From Gammaproteobacteria bacterium (GTDB lineage Bacteria > Pseudomonadota > Gammaproteobacteria > Pseudomonadales > Pseudohongiellaceae), in the NCBI GenBank assembly GCA_002711845.1, contig PASF01000001.1, forward strand, positions 479,537 through 543,536: 64,000 bases of DNA, written 5' to 3'. A program made the position numbers and the translations under genes. Positions 40,601 to 62,012 of this stretch are shown here, one piece after another; positions within the stretch are counted from its first letter, which is position 1, and each line of letters opens with the position of its first letter. Below the pieces are notes generated by a model. It saw only the letters and a list, made by a program, of their open reading frames with translations, was not told the origin of the DNA and ran no database searches.

Positions 40601-41866
40601 ATGCCTATAGGAAAATATCTGCTCCCGATCCTGTTCAGTCTGTCGCTGCCCGCGATAGCGGACACACCTGCCTCTGGCCTGCCCATGGCCGAGCCGGGAA
40701 GTGTCGGCATGTCAGCGCAGCGACTTCAGCGCATTGATGATTTCATGCAGCGTTACATTGACGCTGATATGGTTGCCGGCACCGTGACGCTGGTAGCACG
40801 CAAAGGCAAGGTTGTGCATTTCCAGGCACAGGGCATGAAGGATGTCGAGCGAGGCCAGGAGATGACCACGGACACCATTTTCCGCATGGCATCCATGACC
40901 AAGCCAATCGCCTCGGTGGCACTGATGATGCTCTATGAGGAAGGCTGGTTTCAGCTGGATGATCCGATTTCCGACTGGCTGCCGGAATTCAGCAATATGA
41001 TGATCGAGGTGGAGAACGCGGATGGCAGTACCCGCCTGGCGCCGGCACAGACTCCGATCAACTTCACCCATATTCTGACGCATACAGCCGGCCTGATGAA
41101 CAGCTACCGTGGAGATGTTGCCCGGTATTCCGAGGTGTCGCGTGTTCAGGGCGATGAAGACCTGGCCAGCTGGACCGAGCGTCTGGCGACCCTGCCGCTG
41201 CGCTACGAGCCGGGCACACGCTGGGAGTACTCTGCAGCCACCAGTGTGGTCGGGCGTCTGGTGGAAGTGATCTCCGGTCAGGATCTGGATACTTTTTTGC
41301 GTGAACGGATCTTCACACCCTTGCAGATGCGCGATACACATTTTTATCTGCCACCAGACAAAGTGGGTCGCTTTGCCACGCTTTATGGTCCGAACCCGGA
41401 CAACGGTAATCGCATGATGTTGACCGAAGTGGGCGATGCCAACAGCCGCTACGTAACAGAGCCAAGGACGTTCTTCTCCGGTGCGGGCGGACTGGTCTCG
41501 ACGGCACACGACTATATCCGGTTCCAGCAGATGATGCTGAATGGTGGTGAACTGGATGGTGTTCGTTTGCTGGGTACAAAAACGGTGGAGCTGATGTTCG
41601 CCAACCATACCGGTGATTTACCATTGTGGCTGAGCGGACCGGGCATGGGCTTCGGCCTGGGTTATTCGGTCGTACTGGATCGCGCCGAAGCGTATACGTC
41701 GGACTCGGAAGGCTCAGTGTCCTGGGGTGGGGCATTTGGCACATTGTTTTGGATTGATCCGGCTGAAGAACTGGTGGCCATTGTGCTGACGCAGATCCGG
41801 CCTTATTCGCATATCCGCATACGCGAGGGTTTCCACAATGTGGTGAATCAGGCGATTGTGGATTGA
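40601..41866 (+). CDS. Exported serine beta-lactamase-like hydrolase (class C family)
   Basis: A 421-residue protein with a signal peptide (LLPILFSLSLPAIA, to about residue 20) and a penicillin-binding-protein/beta-lactamase fold. The SxxK motif is SMTK (Ser98, Lys101). The second motif, normally YxN, reads YSAAT (Tyr present, Asn absent), so it is likelier an esterase or peptidase-type family member than an efficient beta-lactamase. ATG 40601 is used because GGGGA lies eight bases before it; the ATG at 40586 is an alternative. The paralogue at 46.8-48.1 kb has the same motifs. Confidence 0.85.
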   Translation: MPIGKYLLPILFSLSLPAIADTPASGLPMAEPGSVGMSAQRLQRIDDFMQRYIDADMVAGTVTLVARKGKVVHFQAQGMKDVERGQEMTTDTIFRMASMTKPIASVALMMLYEEGWFQLDDPISDWLPEFSNMMIEVENADGSTRLAPAQTPINFTHILTHTAGLMNSYRGDVARYSEVSRVQGDEDLASWTERLATLPLRYEPGTRWEYSAATSVVGRLVEVISGQDLDTFLRERIFTPLQMRDTHFYLPPDKVGRFATLYGPNPDNGNRMMLTEVGDANSRYVTEPRTFFSGAGGLVSTAHDYIRFQQMMLNGGELDGVRLLGTKTVELMFANHTGDLPLWLSGPGMGFGLGYSVVLDRAEAYTSDSEGSVSWGGAFGTLFWIDPAEELVAIVLTQIRPYSHIRIREGFHNVVNQAIVD

Positions 41867-61648: not shown

Positions 61649-61717
61649 GATGGTTCCCGTCTGCAGCAAAAATCAGAAGTGTAGCAGACCTGAGTGCGTG
61701 TCAGGTTCGCTGCAGGC

Positions 61718-61755
61718 AAAAAAATGCCCACGTGACACCTCGGCATCACGTGGGC
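61718..61755 (-). terminator. Strong intrinsic terminator (minus strand)
   Basis: GCCCACGTGA (61755-61746) pairs perfectly over 10 bp with TCACGTGGGC (61735-61726), followed by AT7 (61725-61718) on the minus strand. No annotated gene precedes it in that direction, which is the main argument for the small RNA. Confidence 0.88.
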
Positions 61756-61829
61756 TAGATCACCCATCAATGGAAAAGGGGAGAGTCAGTTCCATTTCTA
61801 GCAACTGATAGGGGAGTATCAGTGCTACG
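61718..61829 (-). ncRNA. Candidate sigma-54-dependent small RNA with two CUCCCCU loops
   Basis: On the minus strand a near-consensus sigma-54 promoter (61840-61855) points to a start near 61829. The transcript of about 112 nt folds into hairpin 1 (ACUGAUA 61823-61817, loop CUCCCC, UAUCAGU 61810-61804), hairpin 2 (AAUGGAA 61796-61790, 14-nt loop with CUCUCCCC, UUCCAUU 61775-61769), and hairpin 3, a terminator. The loop core CUCCCCU is the same in both upstream hairpins and could pair with AGGGGAG-like ribosome binding sites. No ORF or known RNA family is recognised. Confidence 0.65.
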
Positions 61830-61839
61830 CTTAAGATAA

Positions 61840-61855
61840 TGCATTGAGCGTGCCA
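61840..61855 (-). promoter_or_regulatory. Sigma-54 (RpoN) promoter of the small RNA candidate
   Basis: Reading the minus strand from 61855: TGGCACG-CTCA-ATGCA, against the consensus TGGCACG-N4-TTGCA; only one base differs. The GG (61854-61853) and GC (61842-61841) are separated by the required ten bases. Transcription would begin near 61829, six bases before hairpin 1. Confidence 0.7.
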
Positions 61856-61993
61856 GGTTTTTGTTTTATTTTGTATCCTGTTGAAAATGATGGTTATAAA
61901 TAAAAATGGCAGCTAAAACTGCGCTGGCGGCCTGGAAGTTTGGCTGTTGAGCCCTTACGCTGACGATGCTTTTTGGTTCTTTATGAGGGCGGT

Positions 61994-62012
61994 TGCACCA
62001 GTTTGAAGCGCA
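61994..62012. promoter_or_regulatory. Weak NtrC-like enhancer site
   Basis: TGCACCA-GTTTG-AAGCGCA: the left half matches NtrC (TGCACCA) fully, the right half only four of seven. It lies about 173 bases upstream of the small-RNA start, a workable enhancer distance. Confidence 0.35.

Follow-up and report, generated by a model that had tools for sequence, protein, structure and literature searches.

GlnZ is the name given to a small RNA (sRNA) from the 3'UTR of the glutamine synthetase mRNA. In the available text of PMC9731577, an sRNA of this origin is released from the 3'UTR, represses sucA, and is linked to nitrogen limitation. NrsZ of Pseudomonas, as presented in the available parts of PMC9308961 and PMC8395346, is a stand-alone sRNA with repeated hairpins that depends on NtrBC and RpoN; it is encoded beside ntrC, is ~226 nt long, and carries the motif ACAGGCAG. 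The sibling NmsR sRNAs of Neisseria are portrayed, in the available sections of PMC5362039, as having three stem-loops and two UC-rich anti-Shine-Dalgarno (anti-SD) stretches with which they block ribosome sites.

The element considered here lies in a 64,000-nt window (the whole stretch of DNA that was analysed) from a relative of Pseudohongiella, a genus placed by NCBI taxonomy in the Pseudohongiellaceae, Pseudomonadales (Table 1). An initial annotation had postulated a sigma-54-dependent sRNA at this position, with a minus-strand TGGCACG-N4-ATGCA, a transcript of about 112 nt, and no gene upstream on that strand. The sequence features hold: the promoter is present as TGGCACG-CTCA-ATGCA (61855-61840); a transcription start is predicted near 61829, ~12 nt past the promoter, which together with a T7 run that stops at 61718 fits the proposed length; and the upstream neighbour, arfB (NCBIfam ArfB), is divergent, so that the gap has no same-strand gene upstream. 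On the other side, an S1/P1 nuclease gene (Pfam), absent from that annotation, lies on the same strand as the sRNA with its ATG 69 nt past the T run, and is followed by a MipA-type gene (Pfam). The host genome contains a single copy of the element. The favored reading, to which a probability of roughly 0.6 is given, is that the element encodes a stand-alone Pseudohongiella sRNA that RpoN RNA polymerase would transcribe, with NtrC as the most likely activator at low nitrogen, and that would be self-terminated and act in trans.

Table 1. Positions of the predicted sRNA, its parts, and nearby signals within the window
Feature	Position	Strand	Basis
Predicted sRNA unit including promoter	61855-61718	minus	sequence and fold
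Predicted sRNA, ~112 nt	61718..61829	(-)	start and end predicted
Sigma-54 type -24/-12 promoter TGGCACGCTCAATGCA	61840..61855	(-)	sequence; TGGCAY-N6-TGCA in 15/15 congeneric genomes
NtrC-like half-site TGGTGCA, ~145 nt upstream of promoter	61994..62000	(-)	putative
Second conserved upstream block AGAACCAAAA	61971..61980	(-)	sequence conservation
Hairpin 1, loop CUCCCC at 61816-61811	61799..61827	(-)	fold; two-sided changes
Hairpin 2, loop CUGACUCUCCCCUU at 61789-61776	61769..61796	(-)	fold; conservation
Conserved single-stranded linker GATGGGTGAT	61759..61768	(-)	conservation
Intrinsic terminator with T7	61718..61755	(-)	fold; present in 15/15 congeneric genomes
Extended -10 motif TGCTACACT, likely separate nuclease-gene promoter	61678..61686	(-)	11/15 genomes

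Because the window contains two matches to the strict -24/-12 pattern (61855 on the minus strand and 40917 on the plus strand), the promoter match by itself is not significant. It becomes so through conservation, since the element is present in all 15 congeneric genomes and each copy has the promoter, over which mean pairwise identity is ~0.76 in an alignment of the 15 loci. The other match, at 40917, reads TGGCACTGATGATGCT. Upstream of the promoter, GGTGCA is found at a distance of 143-155 nt in 11 of the 15 congeneric genomes, and 10 of the 15 have GAACCAAAA near -124 to -135; in the same alignment, upstream identity peaks at 0.76 near -120. Together, promoter conservation and the NtrC-like half-sites suggest sigma-54 control. 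The genome encodes both NtrC (746 bits) and RpoN (503 bits), and ntrC lies on the same contig at C1:138407, away from the sRNA locus. However, a full NtrC dyad with two or fewer mismatches was not found upstream of the element in this genome, though some relatives have full dyads, and for this reason NtrC is a presumed activator.

The RNA is predicted to fold at -43.2 kcal/mol, compared with a mean of -26.5 for shuffled sequences (z = -4.6), and none of 200 shuffles was as low. In this fold, hairpin 1 consists of an outer 5-bp stem and a 6-bp stem that closes the hexaloop CUCCCC, hairpin 2 has a stem of 7 bp around a 14-nt loop, and the terminator has a stem of 13 bp; the linker between hairpin 2 and the GC-rich terminator is GAUGGGUGAU. 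Thus, of the two perfect 7-bp hairpins originally described, only hairpin 2 has that form, and the terminator and its T7 were correctly placed but the stem is longer than the 10 bp first assigned to it. The further claim that the two loops share a C-rich motif is borne out in 14 of the 15 congeneric genomes; in the remaining one (L014/L030), the stem of hairpin 1 is kept but its C-rich loop is lost.

In a DNA search, the element was found once per genome in all 15 genomes of the genus (g1), and every copy retains promoter, hairpins, and terminator, so that the loss in close relatives that would have told against the annotation is not seen. Identity in the 15-locus alignment reaches 1.0 in two 10-nt bins of hairpin 2 and is mostly 0.2-0.6 outside. 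In hairpin 1, the six pairs nearest the loop are all formed in 14 of 15 genomes; nine distinct stems occur, each of the six pairs shows two-sided changes, and across the 15 genomes the arms pair with their own partners at 5.7 of 6 positions on average, compared with 4.0 when arms are swapped. The exception, L024, forms 3 of 6 pairs in the fixed scheme, yet folds with a bulge. The stem of hairpin 2 is invariant in all 15 genomes, and its loop varies at two positions only, apart from one inserted C in L012; since the stem does not vary, covariation is uninformative for this hairpin within the genus. Compensatory change, which had been named as a check, is seen within the genus in hairpin 1. The linker GATGGGTGAT is invariant in 14 of 15 genomes and has GAC in L014. 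Taken together, the 15/15 retention of promoter, hairpins, and terminator and the two-sided changes in hairpin 1 support the idea of a sigma-54-dependent sRNA. The element is also carried by a public MAG contig, CALQJO020000019.1 (L068), which is titled Rhodoferax sp. but was matched to the congener G012; the title is probably wrong.

In the proposed mechanism, RpoN RNA polymerase would transcribe the RNA from the -24/-12 promoter, most likely upon activation by NtrC under nitrogen shortage, and the RNA's own terminator would end the transcript. The loops CUCCCC and CUCUCCCC would then pair in trans with G-rich ribosome binding sites of the AGGGGAG type and block translation, an anti-SD-like mechanism suggested by analogy with NmsR as it is described in the available sections of PMC5362039. 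The loops are indeed complementary to AGGGGAG, and in three genomes this sequence precedes ATG 59 times, compared with 19 for the reversed control. This excess could, however, reflect an ordinary preference for purine-rich ribosome sites. A comparison of 55 of the 59 sites yielded only pairs that were 25% alike or lay within one genome, and no shared target; the sites left out were two on C14 of the host genome (G000) that are identical to ones on C6, one on the opposite strand of the sRNA itself (G007), and one in G007 that lies close to another site. Across the 15 genomes, AGGGGAGA-N3-10-ATG has 46 matches compared with 28 for the reversed control, and among the 30 of these 46 sites that were translated, a gene was shared only among closely similar genomes (four groups). 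The seed-based search once suggested for target prediction has shown AGGGGAG-type sites to be commoner than their reversed control, but no target shared between genomes. Duplexes with sucA (14 genomes) and gltA (13 genomes), which were picked by analogy, have energies of -5.0 to -9.9 kcal/mol, weak values that stand without a control set; for L231 and L241, the start codon used in the calculation was evidently assigned to the wrong place.

Across the family, 137 genomes were searched with two models: R1 matched 27 of them at E 0.01, and R2, which includes the promoter, matched 41 at E 0.05, in some cases by the terminator only. Below E 1e-10, R2 matches 27 genomes: the 15 of g1, ten of g6, and a single one each of g5 and g8; four g6 genomes (G037, G040, G041, and G042) have no R2 match below this value. 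Hairpin 2 of g6 has a different stem, which changes on both sides; all 7 pairs form in six of seven copies, and L035 forms 6 of the 7. Seven g6 elements precede an NMT1-type gene, and another NMT1-type gene lies upstream (L032); a gene for a molybdopterin oxidoreductase comes after the element in L034 and L039 (in L034 by domain scan). These neighbors are taken, respectively, as probable nrtA, nasS, and nasA, although NCBIfam gave none of the three kinds of protein a name above its cut-off. Weaker matches in g3, g7, and g8, which are candidate relatives, have different folds. Ten of the 11 that were inspected combine a -24/-12-like promoter with C/U-rich stretches; the other, L134, is a terminator match only. 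In L112 and L129 (g3), L128 and L130 (g7), and L113, L114, L125, L126, and L127 (g8), a terminator comes after these stretches, and these loci could be additional sRNAs of this type or cases of convergent design. In an order-wide search of 293 genomes, R2 matched 21 at E 0.01, seven of them of the genus and 14 in other families. The scores of these 14 are weak (27 bits at best), and none was counted; among the six of them that were inspected, two (L116 and L119) have A1/G4 loops and resemble leaders of the nas type. A sequence scan beyond the genome set returned 20 stretches, 18 of them from genomes of Pseudohongiellaceae. A Rhodospirillaceae MAG (L071) and a Pseudonocardia sequence (L080), in which the stem of hairpin 2 is absent by eye, were treated as chance matches.

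The position of the nuclease gene, next on the same strand in all 15 congeneric genomes and here only 69 nt on, raises the main alternative reading, namely that the element would instead be a cis-acting sigma-54 leader of that gene. In such an attenuator, the hairpins would decide whether polymerase passes through the terminator, and thereby control a secreted nuclease used for nutrient scavenging. Consistent with this, the sequence UGGGU before the terminator could pair with the terminator's GCCCA arm. A gap of 31-74 nt separates the end of the T run from the start of the nrtA-like gene in seven g6 genomes, which leaves little room for another promoter, and in one weak relative, L113, an aminotransferase gene in the same orientation lies ~90 nt downstream. 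However, the association with the nuclease gene is not kept in g5 (L031). This copy has a nearly unchanged hairpin 2 and the upstream surroundings known from the genus, namely a glyoxalase gene and an arfB-like frame, but the next gene downstream, which starts ~290 nt away, encodes a Fer2-domain protein. Within the genus itself, the gap to the nuclease gene ranges from ~45 to more than 180 nt, and in 11 of 15 genomes it contains, within 150 nt, an extended -10 motif, for which a Markov control expects 0.3; L019 and L020 have the motif slightly further downstream, as judged by eye. Furthermore, nine of the ten weak g3, g7, and g8 relatives with a neighbor face a convergent gene, namely GyrI-like (L111), LysR (L112 and L129), FecR (L114), AsnC/Lrp (L125 and L126, and L127 by likeness), or an exonuclease (L128 and L130). 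A leader of the nuclease gene is thus unlikely, but it must be kept in mind because the related g6 element sits directly before the nrtA-like gene.

The g6 copies also bring up ANTAR (NasR/NasT) antitermination. All seven g6 genomes with the nrtA context have an ANTAR gene within ~2 kb upstream on the same contig, and all seven copies have one good A1/G4 hexaloop, GGGU[AAUGUA/G]GCCC; the other three g6 copies (L034, L039, and L110) have none. Within the genus, the 15 copies offer just one weak 3-bp candidate each, UCC[AUUGAU]GGG, and none has the two A1/G4 hexaloop hairpins seen in the positive controls L123 and L124. The ANTAR domain PF03861 is, moreover, absent from the host genome (G000) and from G005, G012, G013, and G014, although the element is intact there. 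Antitermination of this kind is consequently unlikely in the genus, and that the element itself is an ANTAR target is a very slim prospect. The remaining ten genomes of the genus do have PF03861, in ANTAR open frames of 418-541 aa, so that nitrate antitermination seems patchy, with ten genomes having an ANTAR protein and five lacking it. The controls are separate leaders in two congeners (L123:2925-3060 (+) and L124:498-631 (-)), each with the typical layout of NasR-type nas leaders, in which a sigma-54 promoter is followed by a pair of A1/G4 hexaloop hairpins and a terminator; that of L123 precedes an NMT1-type gene. Two other explanations concern the loops. The RNA could titrate a protein through its repeated C-rich loops without pairing to any mRNA, as might be thought from the presence of the motif in two hairpins and from target searches that found no mRNA target. 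Yet an invariant stem and linker go beyond what a loop-binding protein would need, and the motif is lost from hairpin 1 in L014, which makes such a sponge improbable. Alternatively, a short gene, ATG GAA CTG ACT CTC CCC TTT TCC ATT GAT GGG TGA, would overlap hairpin 2 and is open in the host genome and several congeners. However, its third codon is TAG in L008 and L012, the latter also having a one-base insertion, and its third codon positions vary no more than the rest, so that coding can hardly be entertained.

With the stand-alone sRNA as the preferred reading for the genus, a broader, tentative hypothesis, itself rather less likely than not to be correct, would accommodate g6. In this model, a single ancestral sigma-54 RNA element has come to lead two lives, as a free trans-acting sRNA in Pseudohongiella and g5 and as a read-through leader of the nrtA-like gene in g6, where ANTAR genes of the NasT type lie nearby; either an original attenuator would have turned into an sRNA, or an original sRNA would have been co-opted as an attenuator. 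The element may even now be both. The stand-alone copies and those before the nrtA-like gene would provide a natural series for testing a change between cis leader and trans sRNA.

How, then, does the element compare with the described systems? As the initial annotation had stated, it belongs to no named family in Rfam: neither the window nor 14 family loci gave a match at the gathering score, and ten sub-threshold matches were read as shared terminators and C-rich loops. A phrase search of the available literature, which misses other wordings, found no paper combining Pseudohongiella with an sRNA, and just one paper contained any of five phrases for an RpoN-, sigma-54-, or NtrC-dependent sRNA. 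With ANTAR-controlled nas leaders (nasF, nasA), as outlined in the available text of PMC5424462 and PMC3369931, it has in common a nitrogen-linked promoter, hairpins, and a terminator, and its g6 copies precede an nrtA-like gene; however, it has no pair of A1/G4 hexaloops and its genome no ANTAR protein. Like the sRNA of the glutamine synthetase 3'UTR, in so far as the available text of PMC9731577 describes it, it would link an RNA to nitrogen limitation, but it comes with a promoter of its own, and its pairing with sucA is weak. It resembles NmsR, judged from the available sections of PMC5362039, in having three stem-loops and two UC-rich anti-SD-like stretches, here at the level of sequence. 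Yet it scores 20.6 bits as NmsRb against a gathering score of 52 (RF02877), and it is a single-copy element with a sigma-54 promoter, whereas those sections give NmsR -35/-10 promoters. A further parallel in the available accounts is NrsZ, likewise a sigma-54/NtrC-linked stand-alone sRNA with repeated hairpins; in contrast to NrsZ as described there, the RNA is half as long, lies between arfB and the S1/P1 nuclease gene rather than next to ntrC, and lacks the motif ACAGGCAG in all 25 elements. Thus, as far as these descriptions go, the element would share its way of working with sigma-54 sRNAs, of which NrsZ is one, and perhaps with anti-SD sRNAs such as NmsR, while belonging to neither NrsZ nor NmsR; if this is true, it would represent a new RNA family of the Pseudohongiellaceae, probably in the response to nitrogen starvation.
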